Below the pieces are notes generated by a model that was not told the origin of the DNA, did no database searches, and saw only the letters and a list, made by a program, of their open reading frames with translations. The position numbers were made by a program, and so were the translations under genes. Positions 8,962 to 16,656 of a stretch of 33,846 bases of DNA are shown here, piece after piece (position 1 is the first letter of the stretch; each line of letters begins with the position of its first letter). The stretch covers positions 1 through 33,846 of the forward strand of contig NZ_BBPO01000075.1 of the NCBI RefSeq assembly GCF_000787815.1. The letters are read 5' to 3'. The stretch comes from Streptacidiphilus neutrinimicus (GTDB lineage: Bacteria; Actinomycetota; Actinomycetes; Streptomycetales; Streptomycetaceae).

Positions 8962-10071
8962 TTGATAGTGATCGACGCCGTGACCAAGCGGTATCCCGAC
9001 GGGACCACCGCGGTCGACCGGCTCACACTGGAGATCCCCGACGGCTCGATCACGGTGCTGGTAGGCCCCTCCGGCTGTGGCAAGACCACCACCCTGCGCA
9101 TGATCAACCGGATGGTCGAGCCCACCGAGGGCCGGATCCTGCTGGACGGCCGGGACGTGCGCGAGGCCCCGGTCAACGCGCTGCGCCGTTCCATGGGTTA
9201 CGTCATCCAGCACGCAGGGCTCTTCCCGCACCGCAGCGTGGTCGACAACATCGCCACCGTCCCGCGCCTGCTCGGCTGGGACAAGAACAAGGCGCGCGAC
9301 CGGGCGAGGGAGCTGATGGAGCGCGTCGGTCTGGACGCCTCCTTCGCCAAGCGCTACCCCTACCAGCTCTCCGGTGGTCAGCAGCAGCGCGTCGGCGTCG
9401 CCCGCGCCCTGGCCGCGGACCCGCCGGTGCTGCTGATGGACGAGCCGTTCTCCGCCGTCGACCCGATCGTCCGCAAGGGCCTCCAGGACGAACTGCTGCG
9501 CATCCAGGCTGATCTGGGCAAGACCGTGGTCTTCGTCACCCACGACATCGACGAGGCCATCAAGCTCGGCGACATGGTCGCGGTGCTGCGCGAGGGAGGG
9601 CGCCTGGCCCAGTACGCGCCGCCCGCCCAGCTGCTCTCCGCGCCCGCCGACGCGTTCGTGGAGGACTTCCTCGGTGTCGACCGCGGCATCCGCCACCTGT
9701 CCTTCTTCGGCACTGAGGGGCTGGAGCTGAGCACCGAGCCGATCGTCGCCGAGGACGCCACGGCCGAGCAGGTCCGCGCCGCCACCCTCGCGGAGACCCC
9801 CTTCGTCCTGGTCACCGACGCCGAGGGCCGCCCGCGCGGCTGGGCCGACGCGCTCGACCTGGCCACCGGCGGGGCGGGCGAACTGCTGCCCTACGGCCAC
9901 GCGTTCACGATCGGCCGCGACTCGCTGCGGGCCGCGCTCGACTCCGCGGTGCTCTCGCCCACGGGCTGGGCCGTCGCCGTCGACGAGCAGGGCCGCGCCG
10001 TCGGGGTCGCCGCCCAGGAGGCCGTCGCCGCCGCGATACGCAGCGCCCACACGGCGGACGTGCTGCGGTGA
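8962..10071 (+). CDS. Compatible-solute ABC importer, ATP-binding subunit (OpuCA/ProV-like)
   Basis: This 369-residue ATPase belongs to the quaternary-amine (glycine betaine, carnitine, choline) importer family. It has Walker A GPSGCGKT (35-42), signature LSGGQ (136-140) and Walker B VLLMDEP (156-162), followed by THDIDEAIKLGD, typical of OpuCA/ProV. A C-terminal region (about 255-365) has the length and pattern of tandem CBS domains, which gate these importers by ionic strength or c-di-AMP in related systems. I chose TTG at 8962 because MIVIDAVTKRYPDG matches the family start; GTG at 8968 is the alternative. The next gene overlaps by 4 bp (GTGA). The matching binding protein is at 15703-16656, across the conservon. 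Confidence 0.9.
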   Translation: MIVIDAVTKRYPDGTTAVDRLTLEIPDGSITVLVGPSGCGKTTTLRMINRMVEPTEGRILLDGRDVREAPVNALRRSMGYVIQHAGLFPHRSVVDNIATVPRLLGWDKNKARDRARELMERVGLDASFAKRYPYQLSGGQQQRVGVARALAADPPVLLMDEPFSAVDPIVRKGLQDELLRIQADLGKTVVFVTHDIDEAIKLGDMVAVLREGGRLAQYAPPAQLLSAPADAFVEDFLGVDRGIRHLSFFGTEGLELSTEPIVAEDATAEQVRAATLAETPFVLVTDAEGRPRGWADALDLATGGAGELLPYGHAFTIGRDSLRAALDSAVLSPTGWAVAVDEQGRAVGVAAQEAVAAAIRSAHTADVLR

Positions 10072-10724
10072 GCCACGGAGGATTCTTCGAGGTCCCGAGC
10101 GACCTGCAGAACACCTGGTGGGGTCTGGTCGGCTGGCAGCTGCAGCTGACGCTCGTCCCCGTCCTGTGCGGGCTGGTGATCGCGCTGCCGATCGCCCTGT
10201 TCTGCCGCCGCTTCGGCTGGATCTACCCGCCGGTCCTGGGCGTCTCCACCGTCTTCTACGCGGTCCCCTCGCTGGCCCTCTTCGTGTTCCTGATCGACTG
10301 GTTCGGCGAGAGCGACCTCACCGTCGAGATCCCGCTGACCCTCTACACCCTGGTCGTGCTCGTGCCGGCCATCGTCGACGGCATGCGCTCGGTCTCCGAG
10401 GACACCCGTGCGGCCGCGGAGGCCATGGGCTTCGGCACGCTGCGCCGCTACTTCCAGGTGGAGCTCCCGATCGCCGTCCCCGCCGTCTTCGCGGGCCTGC
10501 GCGTCGCCACCGTCTCCAGCGTCAGCCTGGTCAGCGTCGGCATGCTGATCGGCAACGAGGGCGCGCTCGGCAACCTGCTCTCCGACGCCCTCAACTACCA
10601 CCGCCCGCTCCTCGCCTGGGACGCGGTGCTCTCCATCGCCGTCATCGGCGTGCTGCTGGACACCCTGCTCGTGCTGGCCCGGCGGCTGCTGACGCCCTGG
10701 GCGAGGAAGGCCACGGCCAAGTGA
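10068..10724 (+). CDS. Compatible-solute ABC importer, permease (OpuCB/ProW-like)
   Basis: The 218-residue polytopic protein carries the BPD_transp_1 fold: about five to six hydrophobic helices and the coupling loop EDTRAAAEAMGFGTLRRYFQVELPIAVPAVFAGLR (EAA-type motif) that docks on the ATPase. It begins with GTG overlapping the ATPase stop, and its own TGA overlaps the next GTG, so the three importer genes are translationally coupled. With the second permease it should form the heterodimeric membrane channel. Sequences such as PSLALFVFLIDWFGES and GALGNLLSDALNY fit the betaine/choline subclass. Confidence 0.9.
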   Translation: MSHGGFFEVPSDLQNTWWGLVGWQLQLTLVPVLCGLVIALPIALFCRRFGWIYPPVLGVSTVFYAVPSLALFVFLIDWFGESDLTVEIPLTLYTLVVLVPAIVDGMRSVSEDTRAAAEAMGFGTLRRYFQVELPIAVPAVFAGLRVATVSSVSLVSVGMLIGNEGALGNLLSDALNYHRPLLAWDAVLSIAVIGVLLDTLLVLARRLLTPWARKATAK

Positions 10725-11389
10725 ACATCTTCGGCTACGCCCAGCAGTTCTTCGACGCCCCCGGCCGCTGGTCCGGCGCCGACGGCATCCCCACCCGCAT
10801 GCTGGAACACGTCCAGTACAGCGCGCTGGCCCTGCTGATCGCCCTGGTGATCGCGCTGCCCGTCGGCCTGGTCACCGGTCACACCGGCCGCGGCGGCAAC
10901 GCCCTGGCCGTGCTGGCGACGGCCGCCCGCGCGCTGCCGTCCTTCGGCCTGCTGGTCCTGCTCACCATCCTGATGGGCCTGGGCCTGACGCCGGTGATGG
11001 TTCCCCTCGTCGCCCTCGCCGTCCCGCCGATCCTGGTCACCACCTACGAGGCGATGCGCGGCGTCGACCCCTCGCTGGTCGACGCGGCACGCGGCGTCGG
11101 CCTGCCCTGGTGGCGCGTTCTCGCCCAGGTCGAGCTGCCGGTGGCGCTGCCGCTGATCCTGAGCGGGATCCGCTCGGGCGCCATCCAGATCGTCTCGACC
11201 GCGACGATCGCCGCCTACGTCTCCTTCGGCGGCCTCGGCCGCTACATCGTCGACGGCCTCAGCCAGGTCGACTACGCCAAGGTCGTGGGCGGCGCCGTGC
11301 TGGTCGCGGCGCTGGCGCTGGCCACCCTGGGGCTCTTCTGGCTGCTGGACAGGCTCCTGGTCTCGCCCGGGGTGCGCCGCGGCCGGTAG
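10721..11389 (+). CDS. Compatible-solute ABC importer, second permease (OpuCD/ProW-like)
   Basis: This 222-residue permease starts at GTG 10721, overlapping the previous gene by 4 bp. It has the family loop DPSLVDAARGVGLPWWRVLAQVELPVALPLILSGIRSG and about six hydrophobic segments, with GFGGLGRYIVDGL-like sequence near the end. It is a paralogue of the preceding permease and completes the channel. The gene converges on cvnD, leaving a 28-bp gap with no clear terminator hairpin. The operon therefore ends without the substrate-binding gene, which is found 4.3 kb downstream. Confidence 0.9.
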   Translation: MNIFGYAQQFFDAPGRWSGADGIPTRMLEHVQYSALALLIALVIALPVGLVTGHTGRGGNALAVLATAARALPSFGLLVLLTILMGLGLTPVMVPLVALAVPPILVTTYEAMRGVDPSLVDAARGVGLPWWRVLAQVELPVALPLILSGIRSGAIQIVSTATIAAYVSFGGLGRYIVDGLSQVDYAKVVGGAVLVAALALATLGLFWLLDRLLVSPGVRRGR

Positions 11390-11417
11390 CCGGCCCCCGC
11401 GCCCCGTCGCGCCGTGG

Positions 11418-12014
11418 CTACTCCTCCTCGGCGCGCTGGAGCGCCAGTTCGAGCACCACCAGCAACGCGTCGCGGACGCTGCCGCGCTCCCGCGCGTCGA
11501 AGAGGACCAGCGGCACGGAGTCCGGGATGTCGAGCGCCCAGCGGACCTCGTCGAGGTCGTGGTCGAGGTTGCCGTCGAAGACGTTGATGCCGACGGCGAA
11601 GGGCAGGCCCTTGTTCTCGAAGTAGTCGACCGCCGCGAAGCAGTCGTCCAGCCGCCGGGTGTCCACGATCACCAGGCCACCGAGCGCGCCTGCGACCAGG
11701 TCGTCCCACATGAACCCGAACCGGTCCTGGCCGGGAGTGCCGAACAGGTACAGCTTCAGGGTCGGGTCGAGGGTGATGACGCCGAAGTCCATCGCCACCG
11801 TGGTGGTGGTCTTGTGCGGAGTGTGCGTCAGGTCGTCGACGCCCGCGGCGACCTCCGTGATGGAGGCTTCCGTCGTCAGCGGGTCGATCTCGGAGATGGA
11901 GGCGACGGTCGTGGTCTTGCCCACGCCGAAGCCGCCCGCGATGACCATCTTGACCGGCAGCGGCGGGCGGCCCGCACCGGACGCGGAGGGGTTAGGCAGG
12001 GCGGTTGTTGTCAC
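11418..12014 (-). CDS. cvnD: Conservon GTP-binding protein CvnD
   Basis: The 198-residue small GTPase has a P-loop GGFGVGKT (27-34), a switch-like TPGQDRFGFMW and a region LVIVDTRRLDDCFAAVDYFE typical of CvnD/Gtr-MglA-related proteins. In conservons the GTPase works with a histidine-kinase-like membrane protein, a roadblock protein and a DUF742 protein, in an arrangement likened to eukaryotic G-protein-coupled signalling. The GTG start lies within cvnC; the two genes overlap by 23 bp. It is last in the cvnABCD run and converges on the importer permease. Confidence 0.93.
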   Translation of the reverse strand: MTTTALPNPSASGAGRPPLPVKMVIAGGFGVGKTTTVASISEIDPLTTEASITEVAAGVDDLTHTPHKTTTTVAMDFGVITLDPTLKLYLFGTPGQDRFGFMWDDLVAGALGGLVIVDTRRLDDCFAAVDYFENKGLPFAVGINVFDGNLDHDLDEVRWALDIPDSVPLVLFDARERGSVRDALLVVLELALQRAEEE

Positions 12015-12564
12015 GCGTGAGACCTCGCGAGTCGGGGACGGCGCGGAGCCCGTCGATCACCCGTCGCAGGACGGAGAGGTCGTGGGCGGCGTCGGCCTGG
12101 GGAGCGTGGACGGTCAGGTGTCCGGCGGAGCGCAGGTCACCGGCGAGCACCCGCACCACGTTGAGGTGGTGCTGCAGCCGGGCCGCGAGCTCCGCGAGCG
12201 ACAGCGGTTCGCGGCAGGCCGCGACGATGTCGTGCTGTTCGAAGGTGAGCGACGGCAGCGCGTCGAGGCCCGCCGCCGTGGTGACGACCTGGGTCTCCAG
12301 CGGGAGCCGGTCCGCGTCGGTCGTCCGTCCCGCGGTGACCAGGAACGGCCGGACGGAGAGGCTGCGCCGGACGGGCTCGCCGACGGGTCCCGGCCCGGCC
12401 GCCGCCGCGGTTGCCGACGCCGCGGTTCCCGGTGCCGAGGCGTCGACGGGCGCGGAGGCGGAGCCGGTCGCGGGCTCGTCCTCCTCCGGCGGGTCGACGT
12501 AGGGCCGCAGCGGCCGGACGACCCCCTCGCCGCGTCTTCCGGAGGTGTCGTCGGAGCCGCTCAC
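11992..12564 (-). CDS. cvnC: Conservon DUF742 protein CvnC
   Basis: The 190-residue protein has a DUF742 domain in its C-terminal half: VRPFLVTAGRT, ALPSLTFEQHDIVAACREPLSLAELAARLQHHLNVVRVLAGDL, then HAPQADAAHDLSVLRRVIDGLRAV. The fold contains a winged-helix-like element. The first 75 residues are a Pro/Ala/acidic linker with RRGEGVVRPLRPYV near the start. DUF742 proteins are thought to couple the roadblock and GTPase partners. The GTG start overlaps the cvnB stop by 4 bp, and its 3' end overlaps cvnD. Confidence 0.92.
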   Translation of the reverse strand: MSGSDDTSGRRGEGVVRPLRPYVDPPEEDEPATGSASAPVDASAPGTAASATAAAAGPGPVGEPVRRSLSVRPFLVTAGRTTDADRLPLETQVVTTAAGLDALPSLTFEQHDIVAACREPLSLAELAARLQHHLNVVRVLAGDLRSAGHLTVHAPQADAAHDLSVLRRVIDGLRAVPDSRGLTRDNNRPA

Positions 12565-13001
12565 GCGCCGACGCCGTTCTTCAGCTCCATGATCAGCTGC
12601 GGGCTGAGCGCGGCCCCGGCGCGGTTGGCGAAGAGGGTCATCTCGTAGGCGATGTTGCCCAGCTTGGCCTCCTTGGAGGTCACCACGCCGAGCACGCAGC
12701 CGTTGCCGATCGAACTGACCAGCAGGTGGCCGCCCTCCAGGTCGATGATGACCTTGTTCAGGCCGCCCAGGCCGTAGTTGCCGGAGGCGCCCGCCGCCAG
12801 GCTGGTGATGCCGGAGACGATCGCGGCCAGCCGCTCGGAGTCGGCGTGGTCGCGGAGCCTGGAGACGGCGATCAGGAGGCCGTCGGAGGAGACGGCGATG
12901 GCGTCGACGACGCCGGCGGTCTCCCCGGCGAAGCGGCCCAGCAGCCAGGTGAAGTCCGCCGCGGCGCCTTGCAGGTCCTGCACGGTGGGATCGGTCGTCA
13001 C
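12561..13001 (-). CDS. cvnB: Conservon roadblock/LC7 protein CvnB
   Basis: The 146-residue protein is a single roadblock/LC7 domain: FTWLLGRFAGETAGVVDAIAVSSDGLLIAVS at the N terminus, then NKVIIDLEGGHLLVSSIGNGCVLGVVTSKEAKLGNIAYEMTLFANRAGAALSPQL. Roadblock proteins dimerise and regulate small GTPases of the MglA/Rag type, here presumably CvnD. GTG start at 13001, overlapping the cvnA stop by 4 bp, with its own stop overlapping cvnC, which indicates tight translational coupling. Confidence 0.95.
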   Translation of the reverse strand: MTTDPTVQDLQGAAADFTWLLGRFAGETAGVVDAIAVSSDGLLIAVSRLRDHADSERLAAIVSGITSLAAGASGNYGLGGLNKVIIDLEGGHLLVSSIGNGCVLGVVTSKEAKLGNIAYEMTLFANRAGAALSPQLIMELKNGVGA

Positions 13002-15349
13002 TGTCCCACTCCTTCCGTTCTCTCAGGGGTGCTGGTCGTGCCGTTGGTGCTGGTGGAACCGATACTGCTGTCGCGCTCGGCGCGGCTGACCGCGGCTTCG
13101 AACTCCTCCAGGGCGGAGCGCACTTCGTCCGGATCCGCGGGGCGGGCCGCGAAGTGGACGGCGCCGCCTCGGTCCTCGCGCAGGGTCGCCCCGCGCACCC
13201 GTCGCTTCAGCCCCCCGCTCGCCTGGACGCCGTCGGCGCCGGTCTCGTTCCCGTCGCCGTGGGTGCGGGCGCCGGCGGACGCGAGGGCGGGGGCCGGCTC
13301 CGGAGCCGGAATCGCCGCCTTCAGACGCGCGGGGGAGGGCGCGAGCGCGGGCGCCGCGACCGCGGACCAGGTGAGGCCCGCGAGCGTCGCGCCCGGGGTG
13401 ACCAGATCGGCGGGCAGGGCGACGTCGCAGGTCACACCGCCGCCAGGGGTGTGCGACAGGGTGACCCTGAGGTCCCAGCGGCGGGCGAGCACGCCGACGA
13501 CGAAGAGGCCGAGCACTCTGGTGGGCGCCAGGTCCAGGCGCTCGCGGCGGACCAGCCGGGCGTTCTCCTCGAGGAGCCGTTCCGCGCTCATGCCGAGACC
13601 GTGGTCGACGATCTCCAGCACCGCCTGGCCGTGACGCTCCCGCAGCGTCACGGCGACCTCGCTGTGCGCGGGGGAGAAGGAGACCGCGTTCTCCAGCAGT
13701 TCCGCCAGCACCAGGACGAGGTCGTTGACGAGGTCCGGCGCCACGGTCGCGTCGACGTCGGCCAGCAGCCGGACCCGCTCGAAGCCCTCGATCTGGCCCA
13801 GCGCGGCCCGGACGACGTGACTCAGTTCGGCCGGGCGACCGTCGAGTTCGGTGTCCCGCAGGCCGGCCAGCAGCATCAGGGAGTCGGCGTTGCGCTGCAG
13901 ACGCACCGCGATGTGGTCGATCCGGTAGAGCTGTTCGAGCAGCGCGGGGTCGGTCTCCCCGCGCTCCACCGCGTCGATCAGCCCCAGTTGACGTCCCGTC
14001 AGGTTGGCGACCCGGCGTCCGATGTTGCCGAACATCTCCGCGATGTTGCGGCGGCTCTGCGCCTGCCGCTCCAACAGCGCGCCGGCGGTGGCCTGCACCT
14101 GGTTGAACGCCCTGGCCAGCTCGCCGATCTCGTCGCTCGCCAGGATCGGCAGGTCCTCCAGCTGCGGGGGGCCGTCGGCTGCGGGGGTGTCCTCGTCCGC
14201 GACGCGCGCCAACTCCTGGGCGGAGAGCTCGGAGACGCGCCGCGCGGCCTCGGTCACCTGCTGCAGCGGACCGACGATCGAGCGGCGGATGAGCGTGAGC
14301 AGCAGCACCCAGCCGAGGAAGAGGACGACGGCGAGGACGAGCAGCAGGCTCGCCCGCCACCAGGAGCGGCTCGAGTCGCGCCGGGCCTCGGCGGCGATCT
14401 GCGGGATCAGCCTGCTGATGACGCCGGCCCGCTGCTGGGACTCCCGGTCGGCCGCCGGCTCCAGCGCCTGCGCCGCCTTGCCTGCGGCGCGCAGTTGCGC
14501 TGCGGTGGGGTTGGCCACGGCCGAGATGTTCTGCGCCAGGTCGCTGAGCGTCGACTCGAGTTGCAGCTCGTCCGGGCCGAAGTCGATCTCGTAGAGAGCG
14601 CTGGACCGGTCGGCCGGCGCGACCGCGGCGAAGCGGGCCTGCTGGGCCTTGTAGAGCTGGTAGCTGCTCTCCGCCACACCGAACTGGACGACGGCGTCGG
14701 AGTCCCTGGTGAGCGCGGAGACGACGGACGTCTCGAACTGCGCGTGGGCCGAGTCGGCCCGGAGCAGCACGTCGAGCTGGTCCGCGAGGCGCGCGGCGCT
14801 CTGGCTGTGCTGCTGTGCGGTGAGGCCGAGGCCGTCGATCAGGCCCTCGGAGACGTCGCCGTAGGCGGCGTCGATGTTCTCGGTCGGGAGGAGGCCGGAG
14901 GCGACGGCCTGGCGAGCCAGGCCGAGCCCGTACGGCCCCAGTCTCTGCAGCGCGGTGTCCAGCTCCGCCGGCATCGCGCTGCCGAAAGCCCGTCGGACGG
15001 CGGCCGCCTGGGCGTCCGTGGCGTGCTGCGCGGCCGCGTAGGCGGCGCGGTCGGCCGGGTTCCTGCCGACGCCGGCCGTGGTGCTCCAGTAGCTCTCGTA
15101 GGCGAGGATCGCCTGCGCCTGCTCGCGCTGGATGTCGTCGACGAGGCGGGCGACGGTGGCGCTGTTGCCGAGCAGGCCGGCCTCGGTCGCCGCGGACTGG
15201 GCCTGGTTGACCTGGCCCGCCATGGCCACCGTGCCGAGCAGGGTGATGACGACGAGCGGGGCGGCGATCAGCGTGTTGAGCTTGCGCCGGAACGGCAGCC
15301 GGGTGAGACGTCGTCCGAGCCGGTCGGCCAAGGTGTCCAGGGAGGACAA
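12998..15349 (-). CDS. cvnA: Conservon sensor histidine kinase CvnA
   Basis: The 783-residue membrane protein starts at TTG 15349, preceded by AGGAGA 5 nt upstream. A first transmembrane helix (about 28-50) and a second (about 338-362) flank an extracytoplasmic helical sensor region of about 290 residues, of nitrate-sensor-like (NIT) type. A HAMP-like linker follows, then a dimerisation helix region and an HATPase_c domain with N-box ELLENAVSFSPAHSEV and G-box DHGLGMS. No well-formed phospho-accepting H-box is obvious, which is common in this nitrate-sensor-like kinase group. The C-terminal 120 residues are Ala/Pro-rich and disordered. It heads the operon cvnABCD, with a likely promoter at 15446-15475. 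Confidence 0.93.
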   Translation of the reverse strand: MSSLDTLADRLGRRLTRLPFRRKLNTLIAAPLVVITLLGTVAMAGQVNQAQSAATEAGLLGNSATVARLVDDIQREQAQAILAYESYWSTTAGVGRNPADRAAYAAAQHATDAQAAAVRRAFGSAMPAELDTALQRLGPYGLGLARQAVASGLLPTENIDAAYGDVSEGLIDGLGLTAQQHSQSAARLADQLDVLLRADSAHAQFETSVVSALTRDSDAVVQFGVAESSYQLYKAQQARFAAVAPADRSSALYEIDFGPDELQLESTLSDLAQNISAVANPTAAQLRAAGKAAQALEPAADRESQQRAGVISRLIPQIAAEARRDSSRSWWRASLLLVLAVVLFLGWVLLLTLIRRSIVGPLQQVTEAARRVSELSAQELARVADEDTPAADGPPQLEDLPILASDEIGELARAFNQVQATAGALLERQAQSRRNIAEMFGNIGRRVANLTGRQLGLIDAVERGETDPALLEQLYRIDHIAVRLQRNADSLMLLAGLRDTELDGRPAELSHVVRAALGQIEGFERVRLLADVDATVAPDLVNDLVLVLAELLENAVSFSPAHSEVAVTLRERHGQAVLEIVDHGLGMSAERLLEENARLVRRERLDLAPTRVLGLFVVGVLARRWDLRVTLSHTPGGGVTCDVALPADLVTPGATLAGLTWSAVAAPALAPSPARLKAAIPAPEPAPALASAGARTHGDGNETGADGVQASGGLKRRVRGATLREDRGGAVHFAARPADPDEVRSALEEFEAAVSRAERDSSIGSTSTNGTTSTPERTEGVGQ

Positions 15350-15445
15350 GAGGATCTCCTAATGTCCCTGTGCTTCCTGAGTGTTGACGGTGCATCCGGC
15401 GGCGGGTCGAACCTGAGCCCGCCCCCCGAACCCGTGACCGCGGCG

Positions 15446-15475
15446 AGACTACCGGTTGAGCGGTCCGTTTGTCAG
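15446..15475 (-). promoter_or_regulatory. Likely promoter of the cvnABCD operon
   Basis: On the minus strand CTGACA (15475-15470) and TAGTCT (15451-15446) are separated by 18 bp, close to the streptomycete housekeeping consensus TTGACN-N18-TAGNNT. The predicted transcript start near 15439 gives a leader of about 90 nt to the TTG of cvnA. Confidence 0.5.
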
Positions 15476-15568
15476 AGGCGACTGTGAATATTGCGCGACA
15501 ACGAGGCCCTCGGACTTCCAGTTTTCGTGCGGGGCGGTACACCATCGTTCGGTCCCAGGAGGTCGATC

Positions 15569-15631
15569 GTGACCAAATATCCGTTGACTCACCTGCGTCA
15601 CAGCGGATTTGATCATCTGTGGCCTGGGTGA
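15569..15631 (+). CDS. 20-codon leader ORF with strong ribosome site
   Basis: GTG at 15569 is preceded by AGGAGG (15557-15562) with a 6-nt spacer, the best ribosome-binding site in the neighbourhood. The ORF encodes 20 residues (MTKYPLTH...FDHLWPG) and stops at 15629-15631, 71 bp before the binding-protein start, whose own ribosome site is weak. No homologue is recognised. It may be a leader peptide that couples translation to binding-protein expression, or a chance ORF; conservation would decide. Confidence 0.35.
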   Translation: MTKYPLTHLRHSGFDHLWPG

Positions 15632-15702
15632 ACCACGCCCGAACGACACCCGACGAGCCCACGACCGAGCACAGCGACCACAGCAGAAGCCGGATTGGAA
15701 CC

Positions 15703-16656
15703 GTGACCTTCTTCCTCGCCTCCCGCTCCACCCGTACCCGTTCGGCCGCTGTCGTGGTGGCCGCCGCGGCCGCCGTCGCCCTCTCCGCCTGCGGCTCGTC
15801 CAGCTCGACCGCCGGAAACCCGCTGGCGCCCTCGGCGAGCACGGGCGGCGGCGTCATCACCGTCGGCAGCAACAACTTCTCCGAGAGCACGATCCTGGCC
15901 GACATCTACGGCCACGCCCTCGCGGCCAAGGGCTTCCAGGTGAAGTACCACCCGAACATCGGCAGCCGTGAGATCTCCTACGGGCTGATGAAGAACGGCG
16001 CGGTCACCCTGATGCCGGAGTACAACGGCGCGCTGCTCGCCTATCTCGACCAGAAGGCGGTCGGGACCAGCACCGCCGACACCGACGCCAAGACCGCCGC
16101 CAAGCTGAGCCCGACGCTGCAGCTGCTCAACCCCTCCGCGGCCGAGGACAAGGACTCGCTGACGGTCAACGCCGCCACCGCGAAGCAGCTGAACCTGACC
16201 GCGACCTCGACCATCAGCTCGCTGAGCAAGGACGCGAGCTCGCTCGTCATCGGCGCCTCCCCGGAGTTCCAGACCCGCGAGCAGGGCCTGGTGGGGCTGA
16301 AGGACACCTACGGTCTGACCTTCAAGAGCTACAAGGCCCTGGACGCCGGCGGCACGCTGACCGAGACGGCGCTGCAGAACGGCAACGTCCAGATCGCCGA
16401 CATCTTCACCACCGACTCCCTGATCCAGAAGAACGGCTGGGTGACCCTCGTCGACGACAAGGGCCTGTTCGGCTTCCAGAACGTGGTGCCGCTGGCGAAC
16501 AAGTCGCTGCCGGCCGGGGCCGTCACCGTCCTCAACAACGTCTCGTCCAAGCTCACCACCGACAACCTGATGCAGTTGGACGCCCAGGTGGGCGCCCAGG
16601 GCGCGGACCCGGGCGCGGTCGCGGACGCCTGGCTCAAGGCCAACGGGCTCTCCTGA
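15703..16656 (+). CDS. Compatible-solute substrate-binding lipoprotein (OpuCC/ProX-like)
   Basis: With GTG at 15703 the product has 317 residues and starts with a signal peptide (RSTRTRSAAVVVAAAAAVAL) and lipobox LSAC, so it is a lipoprotein on the outer membrane surface. The mature part has OpuAC-family blocks: ITVGSNNFSESTILADIYGHAL, PNIGSREISYGLMKNGAVTLMPEYNGALLAYL and a second lobe with DIFTTDSLIQKNGWVTLVDDKGLFGFQNVVPL. EYNG and TTDS fit the quaternary-amine binding class. It is the missing component of the importer at 8962-11389. A 20-codon ORF precedes it, and a perfect hairpin terminator follows at 16668-16711. Confidence 0.9.
   Translation: MTFFLASRSTRTRSAAVVVAAAAAVALSACGSSSSTAGNPLAPSASTGGGVITVGSNNFSESTILADIYGHALAAKGFQVKYHPNIGSREISYGLMKNGAVTLMPEYNGALLAYLDQKAVGTSTADTDAKTAAKLSPTLQLLNPSAAEDKDSLTVNAATAKQLNLTATSTISSLSKDASSLVIGASPEFQTREQGLVGLKDTYGLTFKSYKALDAGGTLTETALQNGNVQIADIFTTDSLIQKNGWVTLVDDKGLFGFQNVVPLANKSLPAGAVTVLNNVSSKLTTDNLMQLDAQVGAQGADPGAVADAWLKANGLS

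Follow-up and report, generated by a model that had tools for sequence, protein, structure and literature searches.

Large actinomycete genomes are described, in the parts of the conservon literature that were available, as commonly carrying 5-10 conservons, and most CvnA proteins as carrying an NIT-type extracytoplasmic domain. Some conservons are described as having an accessory CvnE (P450) or CvnF (GAF) protein, together with CvnAs that have no extracytoplasmic domain (PMC13343842, available in part). Among other signalling systems, a binding protein stimulates a sensor kinase via its extracytoplasmic domain in TorT/TorS, LuxP/LuxQ and XylFII/LytS, according to excerpts of PMC6321045, and in the GlnH/GlnX/PknG system of mycobacteria the gene of a solute-binding protein (SBP) lipoprotein is genetically linked to that of a membrane protein for which four-helix bundles are predicted (excerpts of PMC6069109). 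Within the accessible portions of the open-licence literature on conservons and cvnA, no SBP partner of a conservon is described. The locus considered here, in a 33,846-nucleotide stretch of Streptacidiphilus neutrinimicus DNA (contig NZ_BBPO01000075.1, positions 1 to 33,846; hereafter the window), holds a conservon, cvnABCD, between the core and the SBP gene of an importer operon. The neighbourhood of cvnA and the divergent SBP gene proved to be the more tightly conserved part of this arrangement, and CvnA might use the lipoprotein as a co-receptor.

The original prediction had described an importer on the plus strand whose halves are split by a complete minus-strand cvnABCD, and ORFs, Pfam and the loci of relatives confirm it. 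Between 8962 and 16656 the importer ATPase and two permease genes (+) are followed by the conservon (-) and then by the SBP gene (+). The whole conservon occupies 11418-15349, with overlapping reading frames. Its first gene, cvnA (12998..15349), encodes a histidine-kinase-like sensor of 783 aa with a TTG start (HAMP, PF00672, 3e-9; HATPase_c, PF02518, 5e-11), and is followed by cvnB, encoding a roadblock protein (12561..13001; PF03259, 6e-16), cvnC, encoding a DUF742 protein (11992..12564; PF05331, 9e-25), and cvnD, encoding a small Ras-like GTPase (11418..12014; PF03029, 8e-24; TIGR00231, 3e-5, below the cut-off). The SBP gene (15703..16656, plus strand) encodes an OpuAC-family lipoprotein (PF04069, 9e-48) and diverges from cvnA across an intergenic region of 353 bp (15350..15702), and cvnD converges on the second permease gene (P2), which ends 28 bp away. 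The locus shows all the core features of a conservon that were examined, a HAMP/HATPase CvnA being followed in order by roadblock, DUF742 and GTPase proteins, and the importer is of the OpuC/ProX type by family, with an OpuAC SBP, a ProV-like ATPase and two permeases.

Throughout the genus the cvnA gene adjoins the SBP gene, in 14 of 14 Streptacidiphilus genomes (SBP identity 59-100%), and this conservation excludes a chance arrangement. P2 is present in 13 of the 14. The exception is Streptacidiphilus sp. 4-A2 (G013; L017 / L167), where the frames of P2 and cvnA are broken and sequencing errors are likely, as the assembly is only 76% complete. Full gene order was seen in 12 of the 13 fetched loci of relatives, L017 with its broken frames among them, the other (L014) being cut by a contig end. 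The sample comprised 150 genomes of the family, of which 43 carry a CvnA orthologue, namely the 14 of the genus and 29 others; G023 and G044, with matches at E ~1e-83 and 38-48% identity, were excluded as other conservons. In 41 of these 43 genomes a divergent SBP lipoprotein gene adjoins cvnA, of the OpuAC type in 38 and of the Peripla_BP_4 type in 3. As a control, 21 other conservons of G000, G138 and G120 were considered, and an SBP gene lies next to cvnA in one of them, on the same strand and not divergent (Fisher p 2e-13 for 41/43 against 1/21, kinship uncorrected). Control neighbours were called with an ORF picker based on third-position GC content (GC3), 20 of them being scanned with Pfam and one, the CvnD of the next conservon, seen by eye; three conservons of G000 with no cvnA ORF in the stretch, together with L140 and L149, were left out.

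The pair also persists where the rest of the importer is remote. A complete importer core lies upstream in G090, G096 and G120, at P2-cvnD distances of about 23, 6 and 38 kb, respectively, and G102 has no close P2 in its genome, the best being 54% identical and belonging to a paralogous importer; in all four the cvnA-SBP pair is intact. The three loci with a distant core (L073, L076 and L077, with cores L101, L098 and L099) fall in group g6, which holds Actinacidiphila. In G138, G103 and G145 the OpuAC protein is replaced by a Peripla_BP_4 (sugar-type) lipoprotein, likewise divergent from cvnA. Homologues of this protein number 22 in 19 of the 150 genomes, and the 19 that are not beside cvnA all adjoin ABC ATPase and BPD_transp_2 permease genes, whereas the three cvnA-linked loci hold no relatives of these cognate genes; an unrelated SBP therefore took the OpuAC place without its transporter. 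A transporter that could use the SBP is present in the window; G102 has no close P2, and the loci of the three genomes with the sugar-type protein have no cognate ABC genes. The suggestion that the conservon is kept with the importer for a functional reason is supported for cvnA and the SBP gene, and less so for the importer as a whole, given the core 6-38 kb away in three genomes and the lack of a close P2 in one.

Sequence divergence follows the same line. Partial correlations of distances were computed over the 47 named loci that have all eight genes, for 10 protein regions, each pair given all others, with the first permease (P1) as a positive control, being a transport partner of the SBP. 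The SBP correlates with the CvnA sensor domain (partial r 0.67; 0.31 in the 38 Streptomyces loci, with 0/2000 permutations as high) and with P1 (0.41; 0.31 in Streptomyces, again 0/2000), and not with the CvnA kinase domain (-0.04; 0.01 in Streptomyces, 817/2000 as high). Other pairs correlate too, which makes the measure a noisy one: the CvnA kinase domain with ATP_C (0.46 over all loci, 0.37 in Streptomyces), P2 with cvnD (0.70 and -0.03) and P1 with P2 (0.06 and 0.41), while SBP and P2 gave 0.03 over all loci and -0.05 in Streptomyces.

The part of CvnA that would meet the lipoprotein is its extracytoplasmic domain, at about residues 42-332 (14354..15226, minus strand), described as large in the original prediction. 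AlphaFold2, given 45 sequences, predicts an all-helical extracytoplasmic part (mean pLDDT 82), as found in sensors that depend on an SBP. Compared with known structures, the model is closest to the NIT domain of NasR (4akk; Z 25.4, rmsd 3.4, 270 residues aligned), also the best Foldseek match (E 2.6e-3); Tar and TorS follow at Z 10-14 (TorS rows 10-12), in the range of chance helical-bundle matches. The CvnA sensor is accordingly predicted to have a NIT-type fold. By sequence NIT gave no match for the CvnA of the window, and 13 of the 45 aligned sequences matched at E up to 1 (best 1e-6).

Direct sensing of nitrate or another anion in the manner of NasR was considered as a function for this domain, and is doubtful. 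The Arg of the NasR Glu-Arg (ER) motif is one that we take to bind nitrate. At the motif position, which was matched by motif and not by alignment with NasR, the 45 clade sequences have Glu-His (37) or Glu-Gln (8), and it is the His or Gln in place of Arg that makes direct anion sensing doubtful. Among 14 other CvnAs a regular expression found the ER motif in 10, and Pfam recognised NIT in one (L038). Residues E175 and R176 of NasR are named in the accessible part of a NasR paper.

The intergenic region between cvnA and the SBP gene holds a promoter-like element, TTGACT-N15-GGATTTGAT (15584..15613, plus strand), which matches 14 of 15 positions. Scored as present at 11 or more of 15 positions, the element TTGACT-N15-GGATTGGAT precedes the SBP gene in 54 of the 59 split loci, counting the window, and in 18 of 21 contiguous ones; 8 of 300 random 350-bp windows reach 11 positions. 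Over both strands of the 80 named loci, 2.9 Mb in all, the exact pattern occurs 60 times, 59 of them upstream of the SBP gene; the sixtieth is found in L160, 6645 bp ahead of the SBP start and near the expected beginning of the ATPase gene. The conservon sits upstream of the element, that is, between P2 and the element. In named relatives where cvnA and the SBP gene are neighbours, their matches lie 255 to 1118 bp apart, commonly 300-600. Since the element is common to both architectures, the SBP gene appears to have been a transcription unit of its own already in the contiguous relatives. In many Streptomyces an aligned GTG start lies about 10 nt after the second box, which suggests, from sequence, that the SBP message is leaderless; in the window an in-frame GTG at 15619, an alternative SBP start, would fit this leaderless spacing.

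A divergent layout with a conserved promoter-like element is what one would expect if the conservon controlled transcription of the SBP gene, and perhaps of the importer, from the shared region with no contact between the proteins. This account of the pair as regulator and target is nevertheless improbable, as the element is equally common in conservon-free contiguous loci and is at background upstream of the cvnA-adjacent Peripla_BP_4 genes, Pfam shows no DNA-binding domain in the four Cvn proteins, and divergence of the SBP follows the sensor domain and not the kinase domain.

As to how the operon came to be split, a contiguous importer looks ancestral from sequence comparison. All 16 of the nearer paralogous loci (L039-L054) have a contiguous importer, and in the four distant ones (L055-L058) P1, P2 and SBP genes are contiguous with the ATPase gene reversed. 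On the importer tree, which covers 58 of 66 rows, the remaining 8 having been excluded as short or long-branched, conservon presence needs 7 changes, and the grouping of split loci as one clade was rejected (p-AU 0.00024); a single insertion therefore needs several later losses. The CvnABCD tree, rooted on four distant conservons, separates Streptacidiphilus from Streptomyces and Actinacidiphila, with SBP-linked members on both sides. The five stand-alone conservons form two nested groups on it, G138/G103/G145 and G140/G032, and their union as one clade was likewise rejected (p-AU 2e-38). Within Streptomyces the same downstream neighbours occur in both states (L033, L064, L068 and L069 split; L038, L080 and L081 not), so that split and unsplit are alternatives at one chromosomal site. 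In the simplest history the conservon entered a contiguous operon once, early on, and was later lost repeatedly and departed twice, though several insertions, or exchange by recombination, might also have produced the pattern. The proposal that the conservon inserted into the importer operon thus gains support from conservon-free operons in 22 of 46 relatives, from the 16 paralogous loci and from the occurrence of both states at one site. Two arrangements named in advance as speaking against a linked unit do occur: many relatives have a contiguous importer, and in 5 of 43 genomes the same conservon stands without importer genes at its side.

We propose that an ancestral ATPase-P1-P2-SBP operon, in which the SBP gene had a separate promoter immediately upstream, was entered by a conservon in reverse orientation between P2 and that promoter, and that cvnA and the divergent lipoprotein gene would then have been retained as one sensing unit. 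At the outer face of the membrane the lipoprotein would bind a small solute and also serve the importer; it would dock on the CvnA sensor domain, with its helical NIT-type fold, and the ligand state of the lipoprotein would modulate CvnA and hence the roadblock/GTPase module CvnB-CvnC-CvnD. By analogy with TorT/TorS, we give roughly an even chance to the use of the binding protein by CvnA as a co-receptor. Alternatively, the conservon may be a neutral bystander that landed in a tolerant gap between P2 and a separately promoted SBP gene and persists by inertia. Such a gap is suggested by the promoter-like element already present in contiguous relatives, by the TetR regulator and MFS genes that lie between P2 and the SBP gene, at the usual place of the conservon, in G061 (L081, 5706-7705), by the separation of P2 from cvnD by 6-38 kb of other genes in G096, G090 and G120, and by the 7 changes of state on the importer tree. 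We regard inertia as unlikely, although it deserves to be kept in mind, given that adjacency to the OpuAC gene is kept in 38 of 43 genomes and three genera, that an SBP of another family occupies the same place, and that the cvnA-SBP link outlives the P2-cvnD link, the converse not being seen in 43 genomes.

Several observations weigh against the co-receptor proposal. In G140 and G032 there is no SBP gene near cvnA (2 of 43), and outside the genus, 20 of the 46 close relatives carry the importer and yielded no cvnA orthologue, so that neither cvnA nor the importer SBP needs the other. The SBP swap was probably one event, as the three genomes that show it form one clade, and all counts were taken over related genomes. 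Past cvnD, one of the three swapped loci (L059) contains two pieces of a different transporter type, a fragment of a FecCD-type permease and an ATPase-like stretch. No ABC gene could be recognised in the remaining two loci. Upstream of the cvnA-linked Peripla_BP_4 genes the promoter-like element scores at background, as already mentioned. The CvnA sensor also correlates with P2 (-0.01 over all loci, 0.27 in Streptomyces), and since the sensor is the part of the conservon nearest the SBP gene, some of the correlation between them could stem from joint recombination tracts.

The nature of the ligand bears on the original suggestion of osmotic or solute sensing. Cys30 of the SBP lipobox is invariant in 17 aligned sequences, and the nearest PDB chains are of the OpuBC, ProX and EgtUC types. 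In EgtUC, ProX and OpuBC, aromatic cages grip a trimethylammonium group. In the SBP, Tyr107 and Phe235 are kept, whereas the positions of EgtUC Y341 and Y419 hold Asp151 and a variable residue near 222 (mapped via an OpuBC-type sensor chain, not EgtUC itself), leaving 2 of the 4 cage aromatics of quaternary-ammonium binders. An M. tuberculosis ProX-like protein without the cage aromatics binds polyphenols, and no betaine, choline or carnitine binding was detected for it; 'compatible solute' is, for the present importer, a family label only. The idea of an osmosensor, with the conservon reading osmotic or compatible-solute status and staying linked to an osmoprotectant importer, would suit the OpuC/ProX family to which SBP and transporter belong by sequence. 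With two of four cage positions non-aromatic, a cage-less ProX-like protein of such different specificity, and a sugar-type SBP beside cvnA in three genomes, we consider osmosensing very improbable, and it was dropped as the principal explanation.

Ergothioneine was also considered, hinted at by the EgtUC relatives and by a lyase-like gene 3' of the SBP gene, and was not kept, because in EgtUC, too, the two replaced positions belong to cage tyrosines and because a PDB search placed the lyase closer to histidine ammonia-lyases than to ergothionase. This aromatic-amino-acid-lyase-like gene (PF00221) lies directly 3' of the SBP gene in many Streptomyces and Actinacidiphila (18 loci, for example L019:8725-10500, L078:5799-7502 and L088:8848-10404). 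MIO enzymes have ASGDL at a motif that reads GTGDL in 15 of the 18 loci, the other 3 not being resolved.

The co-receptor proposal can be widened to the whole conservon clade, which may take its ligand specificity from an exchangeable SBP lipoprotein, mostly OpuAC and in some members Peripla_BP_4, via a NIT-fold sensor seemingly without the ER-motif Arg; this extension is tentative, and we place it a little short of an even call. The SBP would then be a third, external class of accessory, coupling importer binding proteins to a Ras-like GTPase module. The single SBP case among the control conservons is a second, NIT-type conservon, which some Streptomyces carry downstream of the SBP gene and whose cvnA is preceded by a Peripla_BP_4 gene; it would be an independent case of an exchangeable SBP. 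This conservon was seen at L135:5523-6665 and L081:12568-13626 and in L195, L197, L200 and L209. Its Peripla_BP_4 gene is present in 4 of the 5 named loci with that cvnA and was not found in L185, and the protein also matches the TorT model weakly. In two further conservons a gene for an MHYT-domain membrane protein lies upstream of cvnA (L134:5978-6751 and L153:6486-7274), possibly another input module.

The distribution beyond the genus gives the background to these counts. Among 136 family genomes outside Streptacidiphilus, a close SBP (E of 1e-89 or lower) was found in 46 and a CvnA orthologue in 29: 26 have both, 20 the SBP only, 3 CvnA only and 87 neither (Fisher p 2e-12, kinship uncorrected). 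The CvnA search scored 8 candidates per genome in the family and 4 class-wide, and a divergent cvnA may be missed; at contiguous loci the absence of cvn genes was checked on the loci themselves. The 46 SBP loci comprise 17 split ones, 7 with cvn and SBP genes and no importer core in the fetched stretch (contig ends may hide it in 3, L071, L078 and L089), and 22 with an importer and no conservon, in which ATPase, P1, P2 and SBP genes share one strand. Among the best 80 of the 335 SBP loci in a named collection, 46 are split, 12 have cvn and SBP genes (with at most 417 bp remaining past the cvnA match in 11 of these), 21 are contiguous and 1 is unresolved; they belong to Streptomyces, Actinacidiphila and Streptacidiphilus. 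Among 296 class-wide genomes beyond the family, only two CvnA matches reached E 1e-80 or better, at 38-40% identity.

The importer core itself consists of the gene for a ProV-like ATPase of 369 aa (8962..10071, plus strand; PF00005, ABC_tran, 2e-37), which matches TIGR01186 (proV) at 3e-88 yet stays below the cut-off of that model, and of the permease genes P1 (10068..10724, plus strand; PF00528, BPD_transp_1, 8e-22) and P2 (10721..11389, plus strand; PF00528, 2e-21). The TTG start of the ATPase gene at 8962 is supported: of 67 named relatives, 56 have CCGAAGGG in the upstream stretch, and 48 have the spaced word CCGA-N17-GATA, which runs from the Shine-Dalgarno-like sequence to the start codon; a small correction concerns P2, which starts with GTG at 10721. 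Upstream of the importer the window has a LytR-CpsA-Psr protein gene on the minus strand, and 3' of the SBP gene follow a MarR regulator, an MFS protein and a BacA-family protein. A consensus scan of the window for promoters and terminators returned 0 of either.

If the proposal is correct, the ligand of a conservon could be sought with a purified soluble protein rather than a membrane kinase, the signal path through the GTPase would become testable, and nutrient import would be tied directly to a G-protein-like system in antibiotic-producing bacteria.

Among described systems, OpuC/ProX-type importers (SBP cluster F-III in the available part of PMC9732360) share with the present one an ATPase, permeases and an OpuAC SBP, and in relatives the contiguous operon; here, by contrast, a conservon separates the SBP gene and the aromatic cage is incomplete. 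The conservons with CvnE or CvnF, as far as the accessible text goes, likewise combine a complete cvnABCD with an extra adjoining gene that may supply the input of CvnA. In the window neither a P450 nor a GAF gene adjoins the operon, its flanks being a permease and an OpuAC lipoprotein gene, and the extra protein is an extracytoplasmic SBP lipoprotein, encoded divergently beside a CvnA that has an extracytoplasmic domain. GlnH/GlnX/PknG, in the excerpts available, resembles the locus in joining an actinobacterial SBP lipoprotein to a membrane protein that feeds a cytoplasmic signalling protein, and differs in its SBP, in being one operon and in its Ser/Thr kinase output. From TorT/TorS, LuxP/LuxQ and XylFII/LytS, as partially available, the locus differs in that its output would be a roadblock/Ras-like GTPase module, its SBP is mostly encoded with an importer and we infer the contact between SBP and sensor; as in those systems, the SBP gene adjoins the sensor gene, here in 41 of 43 genomes.

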